Assembly: GCF_000814005.1 (NCBI RefSeq)
Contig: NZ_JWLK01000001.1
Location: forward strand, 1-64,000
Direction: 5' to 3'
Length of the DNA: 64,000 nucleotides
From: Ruegeria sp. ANG-S4
GTDB taxonomy: Bacteria > Pseudomonadota > Alphaproteobacteria > Rhodobacterales > Rhodobacteraceae
Under the pieces are notes generated by a model. That model was not told the origin of the DNA, ran no database searches, and saw only the letters and a program-made list of their open reading frames with translations. Position 1 is the stretch's first letter; every line of letters starts with the position of its first letter. Of this stretch, positions 34,344-42,107 are shown one piece after another. The position numbers and the translations under genes were made by a program.

Positions 34344-35423
34344 ATGTCGAACCAGCAATTTGAAGCGTTGATTCAAGAGACCCAGCAGAAAGTGCGCGAA
34401 AGCCAGTCGCAGATCGAAGGGCTTACCTCGCGCATCGAAGCGGCCCGCGCCAAGATCGGCACCGCCGAGGCCGATATCGACATCGAAAACGCCACGCTTG
34501 AGGATGTGCATGCCCATACCGAGGTGATGAATGCCAACATTGCCGAGCTGATCATGGGGCTGGACGATGTCACCAGCGCCTTTTCCAAAGATTTCGACGA
34601 AATGCGCTCGAAAACCGGATGGGAATCGTTTGTGGGCATCTTCTCGAAAGGCAAATCCGAGTCGATGCGGCAGGAACGCATGCGCACAGCCAATATCGAC
34701 GACAAGCTGCAGGATCTGATTGCCAAATCCGACGTGATCGTGAAGCTGCTGGAAGGGCAGCTCTCTGTACTGGAAGAACAGCGCGTGAAGGTCGAAGAAA
34801 ACCTGACCGTCACGCTGGACGACCGTGAGGCCACCGTAGCCGAGCTGGAATCCCTGCGTACCGAAATTCAGGGCATGGACCCGACGATTATCACGTTGGA
34901 AAACAAGATCAGCGTCGAACAGGACGCCGCCGCGCGCACCCAGTTGGAAACCGAACTGGCCGAGCTGAATAAGCAGTACAACGCCAAGGTTCAGGAAGAG
35001 CAGGTCAAGCTGGCCAAGTCGCAAACGCTCGAACGCTATATCGAAAAGGGCAAGACCTGGGTCGATTCACTGCAAAACCAGGCAGCGACGCAGATGGTGC
35101 TGATCAACAAGCTGCGGACAGACACCCAGCAGCGCGTGGTGCTGTATGACGCCCTGACCAAATCGCTGAAAACCGCGCAGCAGCAGGACGTGGCCCACCG
35201 CATCAACGAGATCGGTGTGCAAACGGATCAAGAGGCGCAAACCGCCATGGCCGCCATCGGCACAGCGACCAACCAGAAAATGGCTGACATGCTTGAGGCG
35301 CATGAGGACCACATGGTCTTTGCCCGCGACGTGCTGGAGAAAAAGGCCAAGGCGGATGAACGCTTTGCCCGCCGGTTCGCCTCAATTGTCGAGAAGCATG
35401 ATAAGAATTTGTATGGCGGATGA
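34344..35423 (+). CDS. Coiled-coil protein, TelA-like
   Basis: A 359-residue, almost wholly helical protein with long heptad-like stretches (residues about 5-60, 105-270). The region about 150-320 (TLENKISVEQDAAARTQLETELAELNKQYNAKVQEEQVKLAKSQTLERYIEKGKTWVDSLQNQAATQMVLINKL) resembles the TelA/KlaA toxic-anion-resistance family in pattern, but I cannot confirm it. No signal or TM segment. First gene of the cluster to 42107; overlaps the next gene by four bases. It may form a filament or platform for the AAA+ ATPase. Confidence 0.55.
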   Translation: MSNQQFEALIQETQQKVRESQSQIEGLTSRIEAARAKIGTAEADIDIENATLEDVHAHTEVMNANIAELIMGLDDVTSAFSKDFDEMRSKTGWESFVGIFSKGKSESMRQERMRTANIDDKLQDLIAKSDVIVKLLEGQLSVLEEQRVKVEENLTVTLDDREATVAELESLRTEIQGMDPTIITLENKISVEQDAAARTQLETELAELNKQYNAKVQEEQVKLAKSQTLERYIEKGKTWVDSLQNQAATQMVLINKLRTDTQQRVVLYDALTKSLKTAQQQDVAHRINEIGVQTDQEAQTAMAAIGTATNQKMADMLEAHEDHMVFARDVLEKKAKADERFARRFASIVEKHDKNLYGG

Positions 35424-35701
35424 AGTGGTTTAGCCAAAAAGATGTACGGCTGCTCAGGGTTGGCCTCGTTCTCGTAGTTTGGCCTATCCCGATTTTTGGT
35501 CTGCTTGCTGTACTGAACGAATTAAGTGCAGAAGGTGGGGCCTACAAACTGTTGGGCTTCATCGCACTTTATGTCGGGCCGGGTAGCGTAGTCTTCGGGC
35601 TTATCACCTTCGCCCTATATCTGATTTCAGAAGTTTTTCTTCTGCCTTGGCGGATTAGTCACTGTCGAGGAACTGGTTATAGAAATTCCCAGAATGACTG
35701 A
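35420..35701 (+). CDS. Small two-TM membrane protein, AT-rich insert
   Basis: A 93-residue protein with hydrophobic segments at about residues 10-31 and 41-75 and a hydrophilic C-terminus. Codon use is visibly more AT-rich than neighbours (for example tta, cga and agt-rich stretches). It overlaps the upstream stop by four bases and the downstream start by eight, so it is fully built into the operon. No family recognised. It could be an accessory membrane partner or a recent insertion. Confidence 0.5.
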   Translation: MKWFSQKDVRLLRVGLVLVVWPIPIFGLLAVLNELSAEGGAYKLLGFIALYVGPGSVVFGLITFALYLISEVFLLPWRISHCRGTGYRNSQND

Positions 35702-36812
35702 CCCCACCCAAGACCATGTCGGCCTGACCGACACCTTCGCCTCGCGCCGCTATTTCCGCAAATTCGAGGTGATCACCGTCCACCTCCTGCGCGTGGCCGC
35801 GACGATGGAGGCGGAGGGCGCGATCAGCAAGCAAGAGGTGCGGATCGTGTCGCGGTATCTCTCGGGGCTGCTCTACACCTTCCGCGCGCTGAGCATGAAA
35901 TATCTGTTGGTCGGGCGCGATACGGGGCGGTTCTTTGGCAGTCTCGCCATGGACAAGCGCGACAGCGGATTTCCGGTGGCGGCCGAGTTGCTGACCATGG
36001 CCAATGACGCGCAGCAGGCGCAGGTGCATCTGGCGAACATGCCCTCGGAAGACGACCTGAAAACCGAGATGGTACGGACAATCATTGGCGATCAGGACAT
36101 CCCCACCAAACTGCAATTCGCGCTGTCCCAAAGGCTCTATTACGAGGAATTGCTGAAGGGTCAGCTGTTCTGGTCGCGCAACGATCCTGAATGCCACTGG
36201 ATCGGGAATGAGGGCGAGCGGCGCAAATTCATGATCCACTGGGCGGTTTATGACAGCCAGATCAACCTGCCGGTCATCTACCTGATGCAGTTGGAGGATA
36301 GCGGCAAGACGGCGTTGCCAAAGGATCAGCGCCGATGGCCAGAGGTTCAGGCCCATCTGATGGCGCAGGCTTTGGGCGGATTGAAGCTGGTGACAATTGC
36401 CAAAGGCTTTGATCAGGATTTCGATGATCTGCATCCCAAGCATATGCGCCGCATCCATGTGGGGCCGATGTATTCCTCGGCCTATACCGAGCAATCTGGC
36501 CCTCTGCGGCAGGTACTGGAGAATGCGCAGGCACCGGAAGGTCAGGACTGGGCCTTGGCCTGGACGACGGAAGAGCTGGAGAGCGAACATGTGATCGAGG
36601 AACGCGCGGGCTGGTTTTCGACGGTCGAGCGTGAGGTTTTTGCCTTGGATCCGTTCGGTGGGCAGGGGGCGGAGACCGGAGCAACGCGCACCCAACGGTC
36701 GATCATCCTGCCCCAGCGTCCGTTTCAGGTGTTGGCCGAGCGCAACCCGCCGGGGTTTGCCGATGTGCGCAAGTTTGTGGTCAGCAAGACGGGGCAAGTG
36801 TTGCGGTATTAG
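35694..36812 (+). CDS. Conserved hypothetical protein of the AAA/DUF6638 cluster
   Basis: A 372-residue soluble protein that I do not recognise. The N-terminal ~130 residues are helical (RRYFRKFEVITVHLLRVAATMEAEGAISKQEVRIVSRYLSGLLYTFRALSM); the rest is mixed, with a region of repeated Trp (WSRNDPECHWIGNEGERRKFMIHWAVYD) and the C-terminal RSIILPQRPFQVLAERNPPGFADVRKFVVSKTG. No metal-binding or catalytic motif is clear. Its place between the TelA-like and AAA+ genes on the same strand suggests a joint role. Confidence 0.55.
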   Translation: MTDPTQDHVGLTDTFASRRYFRKFEVITVHLLRVAATMEAEGAISKQEVRIVSRYLSGLLYTFRALSMKYLLVGRDTGRFFGSLAMDKRDSGFPVAAELLTMANDAQQAQVHLANMPSEDDLKTEMVRTIIGDQDIPTKLQFALSQRLYYEELLKGQLFWSRNDPECHWIGNEGERRKFMIHWAVYDSQINLPVIYLMQLEDSGKTALPKDQRRWPEVQAHLMAQALGGLKLVTIAKGFDQDFDDLHPKHMRRIHVGPMYSSAYTEQSGPLRQVLENAQAPEGQDWALAWTTEELESEHVIEERAGWFSTVEREVFALDPFGGQGAETGATRTQRSIILPQRPFQVLAERNPPGFADVRKFVVSKTGQVLRY

Positions 36813-36856
36813 TTTCGCCTTCCCTAACGGACGCTTTCAGGGTTCAGACGGGACGA

Positions 36857-36877
36857 GAGTATTTAGAAAAGATGAAG
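36857..36877 (+). repeat. Dispersed intergenic motif GAGTATTT...AAAGATGAAG, copy 2
   Basis: A 21-base element matching the copy at 25730-25751, here 16 bases before the AAA+ ATPase start. The purine-rich end may aid ribosome binding. Confidence 0.5.
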
Positions 36878-36892
36878 CAAGGGCGGTTTTAG

Positions 36893-38821
36893 ATGAGTTT
36901 GACGTCAGATCAGATGGAATTGCGAGAAGCGGATATTCGTAAGCATTATCCGGCGGCGACCGCCTTGCTGAACGGGTTTGAACATGCGCCGCGGATTGCG
37001 AAGGCGGTTGAAGCAGCGGTCGAACGCTCGCCGGGGGTATCAACCGGGCGGCGGTTTCGGTCGACGACTCCGGGGCTGGTGACACGGCGCACCGCCCGTG
37101 CCGACGGCGTTCATCTGGTCGAGCGGATCGAAGCCGCGGACGATGGCGATGCACTGGTCTCGCCGTCTCAAGCCACCACGCAACAGGCGATCCGGAGGGC
37201 GATTGCCATCGCTTTGGCCGTGGCAGAAGCCTACGCGGAGCAGACCCCACTGGCCGATCTGAAACGCGCCAATTTGGCCGGGGATTTGCCTGCTGCGCGC
37301 AAAGCTGAGTTCTCAGAATTGCTGACGGCTGAGGCGCTGATTACCTTGCACAGTTTCGGCAATGCGTTGGCCTATCTGATGTCGTCGCATCTGGGTGAAA
37401 CCACCGTTGATATTGGTGAGATCGAAGAGGTCCTGACCGACAATGGCCAGCTTGCCCTGCATGGTGCGCTGTGGGAGCTGGACCAAACGTTCGCCAAGCA
37501 CGCGGCAGAAGACGCGCACCTGATCGCAGCGGCCAGTGCCTATGCTGAACAACTGATGGATAAGGCCGCATTGCGCGCCCAGTCGGCGAACCATTTGGCG
37601 CCATTCCAGAATGCGGCTTGGCATATTGAAGCTGACGATCTGACGATACGGGGGTTTGAGCCGGCCTCAAGGGCCAAATCCACCACCCTGACCATGACGT
37701 TCAAGAAGCCGAACGAGGTGGTCGGCAACCATATCGCCAAATATCAGGCGATGAAGCTGGCCAAGATGTTGATGGCCTATGACTTTGACCGCCGCCTGAA
37801 CCCCTTTGCGGAACTTGGTGGGTTCATCTTTACCTTCATGGGCGACGGCAAGCCGGGCACCGGCAAGACCACCCTGATCCAGATGATGGCCGGGCTGATC
37901 AATGATTATTGCCAGAACGCGGGCTACCCGTTCCGTTATCAGAACCTGAGCACCGACAATATTGACAGCTATCAGGGCAAATCCGGCCAGAACGCCAAGG
38001 CGTTTATCAACACGATCATTGACCCCTCGGTCATCGGCTTTGGCACCATTGACGATATCGACCAACTGGCGGGCAAGCGCGGTGACCGGCAGTCCTCAGC
38101 CGGGCAGCTGGAAATCACTGCTGTTCTGATGGAGAGCTTTGCCGGTGCCAACACCGTCGTGCGCGGCAACTGCACCTTTGGCATGTTCTCGAACTACCCC
38201 GAGAATGTGGACGACGCCCTTCGCCAGCGTGCGGGAGCGCGGTTTCTGGTGGACGGCCCGCAGACGTGCGAGGATTACATTGACATCCTGCACCTGCTGA
38301 TGGGCCGCAACCACGACATCCCGCTGGGTGAACACGAAGCCTATGCCGCGCAAGAGATCAAGAAAGCCGTCGCCGCCAGTTTCGAAAGCCATTCCCGCCC
38401 GCATGAGGACGCTCTGCTGCAGGTCTATGACCGGGTGTCCGGCGAGATCGGCCAGATGGACACGATCGCCAAGCTGGGTACCTACCTCAAGGCGATCCAA
38501 GCCGCAGATGAGAGCTTCACCGGTCGCGCGATCAAGAACATCACCGACGCGGTCAAGGTTCGCGCGATGGATTTCGAGTTGCCCGACGAGTGGATGGAAA
38601 ACCCCGACCTGTTCCTGTTCCGCGACTACGACACCAAGAAGGCCATGATCCAGGACCTGCGCCAGCCGATCACGGTGGACATGGTGGTGCAAGAGATCAA
38701 CCGCTACGCCGACAGCGAGTTCCGCTATGCCGACAAGAGCGACGAGGTCGCCATCGAGAACGCCGTCCGCGAGATGGGCCGGATGGAAGAGGCCAAGCGG
38801 CGGTATCTGGAGGGGAAGTAG
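36893..38821 (+). CDS. AAA+ family ATPase
   Basis: A 642-residue protein. Residues 1-290 are mainly helical and have no family match; residues about 305-480 are a AAA+ core with Walker A GDGKPGTGKT (317-326), Walker B GFGTIDDID (382-390) and a sensor-1/arginine-finger segment SNYPENVDDALRQRAGAR (433-450). The C-terminal ~150 residues are again helical (lid-like) and end with a charged tail. No protease or nuclease domain. A hexameric remodelling ATPase acting on the coiled-coil or membrane partners of the cluster is the most natural inference. Start ATG at 36893 with a weak ribosome site. Confidence 0.8.
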   Translation: MSLTSDQMELREADIRKHYPAATALLNGFEHAPRIAKAVEAAVERSPGVSTGRRFRSTTPGLVTRRTARADGVHLVERIEAADDGDALVSPSQATTQQAIRRAIAIALAVAEAYAEQTPLADLKRANLAGDLPAARKAEFSELLTAEALITLHSFGNALAYLMSSHLGETTVDIGEIEEVLTDNGQLALHGALWELDQTFAKHAAEDAHLIAAASAYAEQLMDKAALRAQSANHLAPFQNAAWHIEADDLTIRGFEPASRAKSTTLTMTFKKPNEVVGNHIAKYQAMKLAKMLMAYDFDRRLNPFAELGGFIFTFMGDGKPGTGKTTLIQMMAGLINDYCQNAGYPFRYQNLSTDNIDSYQGKSGQNAKAFINTIIDPSVIGFGTIDDIDQLAGKRGDRQSSAGQLEITAVLMESFAGANTVVRGNCTFGMFSNYPENVDDALRQRAGARFLVDGPQTCEDYIDILHLLMGRNHDIPLGEHEAYAAQEIKKAVAASFESHSRPHEDALLQVYDRVSGEIGQMDTIAKLGTYLKAIQAADESFTGRAIKNITDAVKVRAMDFELPDEWMENPDLFLFRDYDTKKAMIQDLRQPITVDMVVQEINRYADSEFRYADKSDEVAIENAVREMGRMEEAKRRYLEGK

Positions 38822-38827
38822 AAGCAA

Positions 38828-39850
38828 GTGCTAACGGACGTATTTTTTGTCAGATACGAAGAAACCCCGCTATTCAGGAGCTTCCTTAGGCGGGAAAAAC
38901 GAGCTCTTCATCAGTGCTTTACTGTCCTCGAAGAATTCCACCCCTATTGGGGCGAAACTGACGATGCTCAAAAAGCGAGTGGCAAGTTTTGGGAAGAGAT
39001 CCACAAAAGGCTAGCAAATGAACTCGGTGTTCGTTGGCTGTCTGACGCATGGTACGAAACCCACGTTGGACTAGGGGAGTACAGGCGCAAAGAACATAGA
39101 AAGAGAGCGTTTATCGAAATCTGCCGAAACTGGTATAATAATCACGCACTTCAAAGTGCCGATATTGATGAGTTTCTGAAAGAACGGCTTAGCCTTATCG
39201 AAGTCGGGTTACGCATAAAGTACGATAGAGCGGATTCTTGCAGAAAGTCTCTAGAAGCTAGCAGGCCTTCAAGTTCTTTGCTGGCTAAGGCATATAAGAA
39301 AACGGTCGACGAATACGAAACCGCGTCGGCAGAAATAAACGAGAGATTTCGCTCGGCAAGGTTTCCGCTCAACTATCACAATGGTTTTTTCCAGATTGAA
39401 GCTGATCTTTTGGTTTCAAATGAAATCGAGCAACCTTTTTGGAGCCTTGTATCCGAACCTGTTTGGCAAAACGTGGACCTCGACATGAAGGAAGCGGTTG
39501 ACCAACGCGACAATGGTGGCAAAGACCCAGCACTTTTTGCGGCAAAAGCGCTCGAAAGTACGGTTAAAATAATATCTGACAAACTCGGTGTTACGCACGG
39601 CGGCGAGAAGGGAGCGCATAACTACATCGATAACCTTTCGAAGAAATCAGTAGTTTTCTTGGGTGATTGGGAAAAGGAACTGTTGAAGGCCTACTTTACT
39701 AAGGTGCGCAACCAATTGGGTCACGGCCCCGGAAGTGAACCCATGCCACAGCTTTCGCCAGATCAGACTTCATGGGCAATTGAAAATGCTATGTCATGGA
39801 TAAAGTTGCTCATTCTCAAGTTTGAAACTCAAAAGGCGAAGGCCCCATGA
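38828..39850 (+). CDS. HEPN-motif protein resembling abortive-infection (AbiJ-like) proteins
   Basis: A 340-residue protein with a GTG start six bases after the AAA+ stop. The C-terminal ~110 residues (KALESTVKIISDKLGVTHGGEKGAHNYIDNL ... FTKVRNQLGHGPGSEPMPQLSPDQTSWAIENAMSWI) resemble the C-terminal HEPN-like part of abortive-infection proteins, with R294-X4-H299 (RNQLGH), the HEPN ribonuclease signature. The gene is clearly more AT-rich than its neighbours and overlaps the next start by four bases (ATGA). It looks like a horizontally acquired defence gene that settled between two conserved genes. The family assignment is tentative; the R-X4-H motif is read directly. Confidence 0.6.
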   Translation: MLTDVFFVRYEETPLFRSFLRREKRALHQCFTVLEEFHPYWGETDDAQKASGKFWEEIHKRLANELGVRWLSDAWYETHVGLGEYRRKEHRKRAFIEICRNWYNNHALQSADIDEFLKERLSLIEVGLRIKYDRADSCRKSLEASRPSSSLLAKAYKKTVDEYETASAEINERFRSARFPLNYHNGFFQIEADLLVSNEIEQPFWSLVSEPVWQNVDLDMKEAVDQRDNGGKDPALFAAKALESTVKIISDKLGVTHGGEKGAHNYIDNLSKKSVVFLGDWEKELLKAYFTKVRNQLGHGPGSEPMPQLSPDQTSWAIENAMSWIKLLILKFETQKAKAP

Positions 39851-41184
39851 TTCGCCTCATCGAAAAAGGCCTGATGTTTGGCAACCTCGTCCACATCTCC
39901 AGCCCGGCCTTAGTCGAGCGGTATAACCGCGCGCTGCAGCACCTGGCGGGCAAGACCACGGCGCTGACGGATTTCCATGTCGATATCTCGGGCTATTCGC
40001 CCGAGGTGGGGATTGAGCTGGAGGACGAGCTTTACCTCAATCCCAACGGCGTGAACCGGCAGTTCATCCTGCTGACGACCGAGCAGAAACGCGCGCCTTT
40101 GCTGAACGTCAAATTCTCGACCTCGCGCGATATCCTGCGTGAATTCATCGAGATGAACGAGGCGCAGTTGTTTGCCCTGACCGCCACCGATGCGGTGGCC
40201 GGAGAGCTGGTGAACTCGGTCATCAAACTCACCACGCCGCGCGATCTGTTCAATATCAAGACGATCGAGATTGAGGCCGATACCGCCGGTGGCACTCTGC
40301 GCAAGTCTGAACAGCTCGCGGGCATGGTCGAGCGGTTCAAAACCGAAGAGGATGCGTGGTTCGACGATGTGTTGATCGCCCGGATGATCGAAACGGCGAA
40401 AGAAACCGGCGACGTCACGCGCAACCCGGTTCGCCTGCGCCACACGGCGTTCGAGCAGCGCAATTTCTGGACGTCGCATTTCGGGGGTCTCTACCTGTTT
40501 CCGGATGTGGACCATCCGGCGGCGATCTGCATGGCGGACAGACCCCACGATCTGCCGGTCGATTTTGTTTTTGATCTCGGCCAGCGCAACCAGATCGCAA
40601 AATTCCTTGGCCTGAACGGGCTGGTCGAGACCATCATCGAAGCGCGCGGCGTGGATTCTGCGGGCATCCTGCAACAAAAGATGGATTTCCTGACCATCGC
40701 GGCCGCAGCGGAATCCGATATCGACCTGACCGGTCTTGACCGCCGTGACATGCGGCGGCTGGCGCGCAATCACGCGGACCAATTGCCCGAGGCGTATCAC
40801 GGTTTGGCGCAACTGCTGCGCTGGGCAACGGATGGCGGGCCTTGGCCGCGCATCACCTCGGACCATCCGGCGTATTTCTACACGCTGCGTGCGACCGACA
40901 CGCCGAACCGCGATCTGGTCAATATGTTGTTGACCGAACTGGCCCCGCTGGACCCGCGCCAGATGTTCATCTGCAATAAAGAGCTGTTCTATCGCACCTA
41001 TGCGACCTGGCCCGAGGCCAAGAAGGCGTATGTTGCCGACTTCCTTGCGCGCGAGTATCAGGTGGACAAGGCCGGTGCCCGCGCCGCGCTGTTTGGACAT
41101 GAGCCGGATATGAGCGGCGAGGATCGGGTCAGCGATGCGGTGATCGCGCGGGTTGGTCCTTGGGGTTCGGTCAGGAGGGATTGA
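39847..41184 (+). CDS. DUF6638-type conserved hypothetical protein
   Basis: A 445-residue soluble protein whose N-terminus (MIRLIEKGLMFGNLVHISSP) and HVDISGYSPEVGIELEDELYLNPNG region I remember as the DUF6638 family of Rhodobacteraceae. Function is unknown. It contains mixed alpha/beta sequence, no TM segments and no clear active-site motif. Start overlaps the HEPN gene by four bases; in genomes lacking that insert it would follow the AAA+ gene. Its stop precedes the next ATG by one base. Confidence 0.7.
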   Translation: MIRLIEKGLMFGNLVHISSPALVERYNRALQHLAGKTTALTDFHVDISGYSPEVGIELEDELYLNPNGVNRQFILLTTEQKRAPLLNVKFSTSRDILREFIEMNEAQLFALTATDAVAGELVNSVIKLTTPRDLFNIKTIEIEADTAGGTLRKSEQLAGMVERFKTEEDAWFDDVLIARMIETAKETGDVTRNPVRLRHTAFEQRNFWTSHFGGLYLFPDVDHPAAICMADRPHDLPVDFVFDLGQRNQIAKFLGLNGLVETIIEARGVDSAGILQQKMDFLTIAAAAESDIDLTGLDRRDMRRLARNHADQLPEAYHGLAQLLRWATDGGPWPRITSDHPAYFYTLRATDTPNRDLVNMLLTELAPLDPRQMFICNKELFYRTYATWPEAKKAYVADFLAREYQVDKAGARAALFGHEPDMSGEDRVSDAVIARVGPWGSVRRD

Positions 41185-41185
41185 G

Positions 41186-41452
41186 ATGTTCGGAGCGATG
41201 CGCCTGTTTCTGATCCTGCTGGTTCTGCAGACGGTTGCCTACTTTGTGTTGTCCATCTATTCGCGCGGGGTTCGCCGCCGAAAGCTCGAGACCTGGTGGG
41301 ATGAAAAGGGCAAGAAGGGAAACAAAGAGGCTTTTGTCGAACGTGGGCTGCACGTCTATGACAACTCATTCCGGCGCAGACTGATCCTGGGTGTTTACGT
41401 TGTACCTTGGGTGGCGATTGGTGCGCTGATCTATATTGTGAACTACATGTGA
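41186..41452 (+). CDS. Small two-TM membrane protein
   Basis: An 88-residue protein with a TM helix at each end (about residues 5-22 and 66-86) and a basic middle part (GVRRRKLETWWDEKGKKGNKEAFVERGLHVYDNSFRRR). AGGAGGG seven bases before the ATG. I know it only as a roseobacter hypothetical protein. Ten bases separate it from the DUF1523 gene, so the two are co-translated and may form a membrane complex. Confidence 0.65.
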   Translation: MFGAMRLFLILLVLQTVAYFVLSIYSRGVRRRKLETWWDEKGKKGNKEAFVERGLHVYDNSFRRRLILGVYVVPWVAIGALIYIVNYM

Positions 41453-41462
41453 GGGTTAAGGC

Positions 41463-42107
41463 ATGGCCTATGTGAAATGGGCGTTCATCATCATCTTTTG
41501 GGGCACGATTGCCACAATCCTGCAGTATTCGCTGCCGCAACATGATGTGGTGCGGATCGTCAACACCTATGAAGAACGGCAGGACCTGAATGACTGGACG
41601 CGGATTTTCTGGTCCGAGCCGGAAGACCAGTCTGCCAGCCTGTCCAATCGCGATGTTCAGTTCATTCAGGCGGTCCGCGCCAACGGTAAGCCCATTGTCT
41701 ACCGGAACGAAGATACCGGCTGGGGCTGGCCCCCCTATTTCAAGTTCGACACGGCCAATTTGTATACCGAGGCAAATGACGCGAAATCGACCAAGGAGAA
41801 CCCTGATTGGGTGGTGGTGACCCACTATGGGTGGCGGAACGAGTTCATGTCGATTTTCCCCAACGCGATTTTCATCCGGCATGTGGAAGGCCCCGACACC
41901 CGCATTATTCCCTGGTTCAACATCATTTTCCTGACCGTGTTTGCCGCTGTTGTCTGGGCGCTTTGGGTGCGCTGGCGTCGGTTTCGGCAGCGCCGGATTG
42001 ATCCGATGTTGGAAAGCGTCGAAGACGGCATTTACGCGGCGGGCGACGCCATTGAAGAAAAGCGTGGCAGTTTCCGACGCTGGCTCGATAGCTGGAAGTC
42101 GAAGTAG
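41463..42107 (+). CDS. DUF1523 family membrane protein
   Basis: A 214-residue protein with an N-terminal TM (AYVKWAFIIIFWGTIATILQY), a likely periplasmic domain (about residues 25-145: HDVVRIVNTYEERQDLNDWTRIFW, DTGWGWPPYFKFDTANL, WVVVTHYGWRNEFMSIFPNA), a second TM (about 150-170) and a basic cytoplasmic tail. This is the DUF1523 pattern; function unknown. Last gene of the cluster; convergent with flgI. Confidence 0.8.
   Translation: MAYVKWAFIIIFWGTIATILQYSLPQHDVVRIVNTYEERQDLNDWTRIFWSEPEDQSASLSNRDVQFIQAVRANGKPIVYRNEDTGWGWPPYFKFDTANLYTEANDAKSTKENPDWVVVTHYGWRNEFMSIFPNAIFIRHVEGPDTRIIPWFNIIFLTVFAAVVWALWVRWRRFRQRRIDPMLESVEDGIYAAGDAIEEKRGSFRRWLDSWKSK

Follow-up and report, generated by a model that had tools for sequence, protein, structure and literature searches.

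What does a compact bacterial operon do when part of its gene content is constant and part changes from one relative to the next? The question is raised by positions 34,344–42,107 of the window, as we call the analysed stretch of 64,000 nucleotides from Ruegeria sp. ANG-S4 (contig NZ_JWLK01000001.1), where eight open reading frames (ORFs), here named A to H, all lie on the plus strand and are separated by short gaps or overlap. The ORF listing thus bears out the arrangement described in the initial annotation. The eight genes are real but do not form a single unit: A, C, D, F, G and H form a six-gene core, and B and E occupy two variable positions, the A–C gap (slot 1) and the D–F gap (slot 2). 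This architecture, with its core, two slots, separate repertoires of slot genes and recombination-like signature, is well supported. More tentatively, we infer that this conserved AAA+ operon may be an inner-membrane conflict machine, probably directed against phages, with the slot proteins as its exchangeable effectors, a reading to which we give somewhat less than an even chance.

The conservation of the core was assessed in 36 fetched loci of the same genus. In 35 of them, A, C, D and F were found in the same order with protein identities of 85–98%. In the 36th (locus L050, genome G024), the core is deleted and the 5′ part of A is joined to the 3′ part of F, showing that the module is dispensable in that genome. 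The core order is kept across the sampled Rhodobacteraceae, with differing genes in the A–C and D–F gaps. B-like genes were present in 5 of the 36 same-genus loci and E-like genes in none, and the proposal of the initial annotation that a module would be conserved without these two AT-rich genes thus held. Its broader description, an uncharacterised and linked module of an ATPase, a coiled-coil partner and membrane proteins, also stood, but the linkage across Rhodobacteraceae applied to the six core genes and not to all eight as one unit. As a separate observation, three loci from named genomes (L097, L098 and L112) have D, two of them also A and C, and show no F within the 7 kb fetched downstream; these modules are possibly decaying or rearranged.

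To describe the slots, we used 99 distinct loci in which A, C, D and F are all present; they were drawn from the top 80 of 561 loci in a named survey, from the genus and, in a few cases, from elsewhere. An ORF of at least 55 amino acids was found in slot 1 at 71 loci, in slot 2 at 92 and in the gap between C and D at 10, with two or more ORFs stacked in slot 1 at 9 loci and in slot 2 at 29. Where a slot held a single ORF, this often overlapped the next core gene (43 of 62 cases in slot 1 and 41 of 63 in slot 2); in the window, B overlaps the end of A by 4 nt and the start of C by 8 nt, and E and F overlap by 4 nt. The turnover was most evident in a close-relative set of 40 deduplicated loci, in which D is 89–96% identical to that of the window. 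Slot 1 was filled in 39 and slot 2 in all 40 of these, and the loci contained 24 different slot-1 sets (one being the empty slot) and 27 slot-2 sets, giving 40 distinct combinations. Both slots thus show the pattern of a hotspot, conserved flanks enclosing different content in close relatives.

The 223 ORFs collected formed 112 clusters, 38 of which had more than one member. Hydropathy predicted a transmembrane segment in 74 of 80 slot-1 ORFs and 96 of 133 slot-2 ORFs, and the G+C content of the cassettes was on average 8.4 (slot 1) and 7.1 (slot 2) percentage points below that of the core. None of the 38 multi-member families spanned the two slots; across 2000 shuffles of the slot labels, the mean number of spanning families was 26.7 and the minimum 18. 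Recombination in the flanks would alone produce part of this fidelity. In all six families tested, codon position 2 was the most and position 3 the least conserved, a pattern that fits real genes; identity at four-fold-degenerate sites was lower than protein identity in five of the six, family 9 being the exception.

A domain scan was made with one representative for each of the 112 clusters, the tallies being matched to proteins by reading them together with smaller scans. At E ≤ 0.001, Pfam apparently matched 7 representatives (Mrr, DUF4279, AbiJ_NTD4, thioredoxin-like, DUF2971, DUF998 and HATPase), leaving roughly 105 clusters without a match. PADLOC models at E ≤ 1e-4 apparently matched 4 representatives: an Mrr-type protein (mREase_IV, PDC-S02), a DUF2971-type protein (PDC-S31), a DrmA-like HATPase protein and an HNH-like mREase_IV protein; AbiJ was added by Pfam. 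Slot 2 includes Mrr, DUF2971, HNH-like, weak HEPN and AbiJ proteins. We searched 54 whole genomes of the genus for the B family, families 0 and 1, Mrr and E. The B family gave 9 matches (2 weak), all in slot 1, and family 0, a membrane protein family, gave 11, all in slot 2; these two small membrane families look dedicated to the operon.

The cassettes of the window itself represent two different types. A set of 5.8 billion proteins yielded 10 relatives of B, counting B, and both of those with a named source are from Ruegeria. E matches AbiJ_NTD4 (PF18863; E 8.4e-9, 36.5 bits against a cut-off of 34) and contains an R-x4-H motif of HEPN type, RNQLGH, which places it among the AbiJ/HEPN proteins; its Abi_C assignment (PF14355) comes from a precomputed annotation of the same protein. 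The G+C content of E is about 0.45–0.49 in surroundings of about 0.57, suggesting import. Among the 54 genomes, E was found only in the window's own, and its 1168 relatives include one of 88% identity in the named species Ruegeria arenilitoris. A 55% identical relative occupies slot 2 in another genus (L074).

How the cassettes are exchanged was approached through identity at four-fold-degenerate sites, computed in blocks along the genes of the 40 close relatives. In A, the identity climbs from 0.52 to 0.79 towards slot 1 (0.74 in the last block), and in C it drops from 0.79 to 0.55–0.61 away from it. In D, it rises from 0.51 to 0.81 towards slot 2, with 0.67 in the first block and 0.64 in a short last block, and in F it drops from 0.89 to 0.43 away from the slot. 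H shows 0.38–0.55, and the control gene flgI 0.381 overall and 0.32–0.43 along its length (31 loci); a control gene upstream of the operon shows 0.603 (13 loci). The computation that included these controls gave nearly identical gradients: A 0.52 to 0.79 and C 0.78 to 0.59 around slot 1, D 0.50 to 0.81 and F 0.90 to 0.44 around slot 2. The slot-2 peak was seen again in small groups of Tateyamaria, Sulfitobacter-type and Shimia loci, and 5 of 108 loci tested (4 of them distinct) carry a copy of 40–138 bp of the 3′ end of D within slot 2. Silent-site identity that peaks beside the slots and decays away from them suggests frequent exchange by recombination through the flanks, possibly under diversifying selection; the combination of diversifying selection and recombination is known for polymorphic loci. 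Constraint on the mRNA or on codons could produce such a peak instead of exchange.

The core proteins hint at the kind of machine to which the slots may belong. D has an AAA domain (PF00004; E 1.4e-11, 45.4 bits against a cut-off of 21.2), and its Walker A and arginine-finger residues are present in an alignment of 23 D proteins, so that its membership in the AAA+ ATPases is clear; we take R444–R446 to be the arginine finger on the basis of what is known of the family. The motif positions given in the initial annotation were correct, but the acidic pair of Walker B is Asp-Asp (D387 and D388) and not the canonical Asp-Glu, and it is invariant in all 23 aligned proteins. Like the classical AAA ATPases, D has an ATPase domain that matches the sequences of proteasome Rpt, Cdc48/VCP, PCH2/TRIP13 and katanin (best E 2.8e-5); it differs from them in the Walker B pair and in some 300 N-terminal residues that lie outside the matches. 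AAA rings of this type pull on or remodel protein partners. F and H were correctly named as DUF6638 and DUF1523 proteins (PF20343, E 4e-227, and PF07509, E 1.6e-71), and A, B, C and G gave no match over the cut-off in a Pfam scan of the eight proteins. The all-helical AlphaFold model of A has a mean pLDDT of 68; that of C is confident (pLDDT 86, pTM 0.86), and Foldseek found no structural relatives for it at E ≤ 0.001. As A and two membrane proteins, G and H, accompany D, the core probably sits at the inner membrane. Within the genus, H falls into two sets, 77–93% or 61–69% identical to that of the window, and G does likewise; F, just upstream of them, is uniform at 85–90% identity.

Table 1. 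Genes, motifs and slots of the operon, in window coordinates.
Feature	Position	Strand	Description
A, core coiled-coil protein	34344..35423	+	359 aa; all-helical AlphaFold model; no TelA profile match
B, slot-1 cassette	35420..35701	+	93 aa; hydropathy-predicted membrane protein
C, core protein, family unknown	35694..36812	+	372 aa; AlphaFold mean pLDDT 86; no Foldseek match
D, core AAA+ ATPase	36893..38821	+	642 aa; PF00004 match
Walker A of D	37841..37873	+	Residues 317–327, GDGKPGTGKTT; most residues invariant in alignment
Walker B of D	38036..38062	+	Residues 382–390, GFGTIDDID; Asp in place of the usual catalytic Glu
Arginine-finger region of D	38222..38230	+	R444–R446; invariant in alignment
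E, slot-2 cassette	38828..39850	+	340 aa; AbiJ_NTD4 (PF18863) and Abi_C (PF14355)
HEPN-type R-x4-H motif of E	39707..39724	+	RNQLGH, residues 294–299
F, core DUF6638 protein	39847..41184	+	445 aa; PF20343 match
G, core small membrane protein	41153..41452	+	At most 99 aa; true start may be further 3′
H, core DUF1523 membrane protein	41463..42107	+	214 aa; PF07509 match
Slot 1, A–C interval	35424..35693	+	−1 to 783 bp across 99 loci
Slot 2, D–F interval	38822..39846	+	11 to 2388 bp across 99 loci

The distribution of the operon extends well beyond the genus. DUF6638 was found over the cut-off in 36 of 61 genomes, all 36 belonging to the same genus, which supplied 37 of the 61, and in 112 of 248 genomes of the family sample, corresponding to 111 of 247 genera. 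In the class sample it was found in 6 of 289 genomes (one under the cut-off), and in the phylum sample the D profile matched 27 of 398 (one weakly). In Sinorhizobium meliloti, the order is thymidine kinase–A–C–D–F–DUF2333, with a DUF559 gene and an insertion sequence (IS) between D and F, and DUF559-type genes occur repeatedly in the rhizobial D–F gap (L164, L168, L199–L201, L203, L204 and L206), the assignment resting on a profile match for L164 and made by eye for the other loci. The rhizobial site on the Rhizobium leguminosarum plasmid pSK03 (L211, 7794–10148) keeps an A-like gene (27% identity) and DUF2333 but lacks C, D and F, a hint that the terminal membrane protein may pair with A in a separate sub-unit. 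Four Vibrio records of 882–938 kb, apparently megaplasmids, match A and D; the two that were opened (L166 and L167, 882 and 925 kb) contain A–C–D–F free of cassettes, followed by an mfd gene. Finally, a 359-kb IMG/VR contig (L156, 3834–10220) carries an A–C–D–F core 34–48% identical to that of the window, close to a phage polymerase-exonuclease subunit (DnaQ-like, 2.7e-46), an Rz-like spanin (1.2e-4) and a neighbouring ORF that presumably resembles SmpB; the contig is probably a jumbo phage.

Two features speak for the conflict reading: turnover as fast as that of arms-race loci, and interchangeable membrane proteins that come with some nuclease and HEPN types. In such a machine, the ATPase D would drive the coiled coil A together with two membrane proteins, G and H, and C and F would serve as adaptors; the core would sense an invader or an envelope insult and then release or remodel the slot protein, which would in turn harm the cell or the invader. 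The small membrane proteins might act by depolarising and the Mrr- and HEPN-type proteins by cutting nucleic acid. Cassettes would pass from species to species by homologous recombination in their conserved flanks, so that the set of effectors would change faster than the core. A more elaborate proposal we consider doubtful: a new class of immune machine, in which a membrane complex of AAA+, coiled-coil, DUF6638 and DUF1523 proteins is a chassis with two docking positions, each served by a private library of orphan membrane effectors that homologous recombination swaps across species under diversifying selection, the chassis having also been captured by a jumbo phage.

Several observations weigh against the conflict reading. 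Both slots are empty in 6 of the 99 loci, and the Vibrio loci and that of genome G247 are also free of cassettes; the core therefore has a role needing no cassettes. Defence-type cassettes are a small minority. Family 1 gave 11 matches in the 54 genomes: 9 lie in slot 2, and the other 2 are weak and stand beside parE-like genes outside the module. Mrr gave 12, of which 4 were in slot 2, 6 on non-module contigs (4 weak) and 2 unplaced, so that at least six relatives lie outside the module and this nuclease cassette type is generic. The recombination signature is not uniform either: the first block of the upstream control gene is also high (0.82), the slot-1 peak is weak in the small groups outside the genus, and the flanks of locus pairs sharing a cassette family were not clearly closer than those of other pairs, leaving single transfers untraced. 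A search of PADLOC-DB 2.0.0 found no member of a catalogued system in the core and no signature gene among the eight proteins; the best matches were a coiled-coil protein for A (8.7e-4) and a generic TRIP13 for D (7.8e-6, weak TRIP13/IetA), with none for C and F.

One rival we regard as possible, if on the doubtful side: the core is a maintenance machine for the envelope or its membrane proteins, an AAA+ ATPase with a coiled-coil scaffold, and the gaps are permissive and well-expressed landing sites where passengers, defence genes included, gather by recombination as they do at defence hotspots. The core persists without cassettes, slot 2 takes generic genes also found elsewhere (Mrr and AbiJ, and in rhizobia DUF559-type genes, with an IS in one record), and recombination alone should make families faithful to their slot. 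Defence domains are rare among the cassettes, and the full scan, by finding fewer than the hand-picked scans, lowered our confidence in the conflict reading and raised that in landing sites. On the other hand, landing sites do not readily explain why the two membrane families that were tested each stay within one slot, why nearly all slot-1 ORFs are predicted membrane proteins, or why the F–H interval of the same operon gathers no genes, its length staying within 275–351 bp in the Rhodobacteraceae loci compared, save L137 (131 bp).

It is improbable, in our view, that the slot proteins are exchangeable immunity proteins against the membrane-acting or nuclease toxins of competitors, while the ATPase core pulls out or refolds the target of the toxin. 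Small orphan membrane proteins of high turnover and the stacking of ORFs in the slots would suit such a library, as would the slot-1 family matching DUF4279 (E 1.8e-10), a domain that occurs in polymorphic-toxin immunity loci; the nuclease and HEPN-type proteins of slot 2, however, resemble toxins rather than antidotes. A TelA-type module for tellurite or toxic-anion stress, the link drawn by the initial annotation, is highly improbable: A is long and helical like TelA, and its WESFVGIF stretch resembles a TelA segment (22 columns), but PF05816 is absent at E ≤ 10, and alignment of the A profile with the genome's own TelA by hhalign gave a probability of 0.7%. That true TelA lies elsewhere in the genome (contig C1:826951–827943; G000, L169; E 3e-108), next to a membrane-protein gene that we take to be XpaC-like. 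When 41 A proteins were scanned at E ≤ 0.1, PF05816 was missing from the 25 families listed out of 29. As for the suggested "membrane stress or defence", the slots lean the question towards conflict or defence.

Known systems resemble the operon in part. The published account of the core defence hotspots cDHS1/2 in Pseudomonas aeruginosa (PMC10250203) describes conserved flanks, variable content with defence genes and a proposed recombination in the flanks. The likeness to the present operon covers the flanks, content varying between close relatives, proposed exchange by flank recombination and defence genes inside; here, in contrast, the slots lie within one compact operon, mostly hold one small gene overlapping a core start or stop, and keep separate repertoires consisting mostly of families without known domains. 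Zorya is presented (PMC11890865) as a modular anti-phage system with a shared membrane-associated core and a distinct effector, including a nuclease effector. The operon would share with it a membrane-associated core, an effector module and a nuclease effector, but PADLOC matched none of the eight proteins to ZorAB. The core differs in consisting of AAA+, DUF6638 and coiled-coil proteins, and the two slots hold putative effectors that are for the most part membrane proteins. Cassette E belongs to the AbiJ-type abortive-infection proteins (PF18863 with PF14355); the likeness ends with this cassette, the core being unrelated to them. CBASS with TRIP13 (Cap6) was considered and rejected, as no nucleotidyltransferase or HORMA domain was found among the eight proteins.

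In the literature collection searched, nothing was found on DUF6638 or the operon, and DUF1523 is mentioned in what are, judged by their titles, phage or pathogen papers; the operon thus looks undescribed in that literature. If the conflict reading is true, a widespread operon would give access to dozens of unknown membrane effectors, which could be gathered just by looking into its two gaps, and an AAA+ chassis would join the known immune systems with exchangeable effectors.

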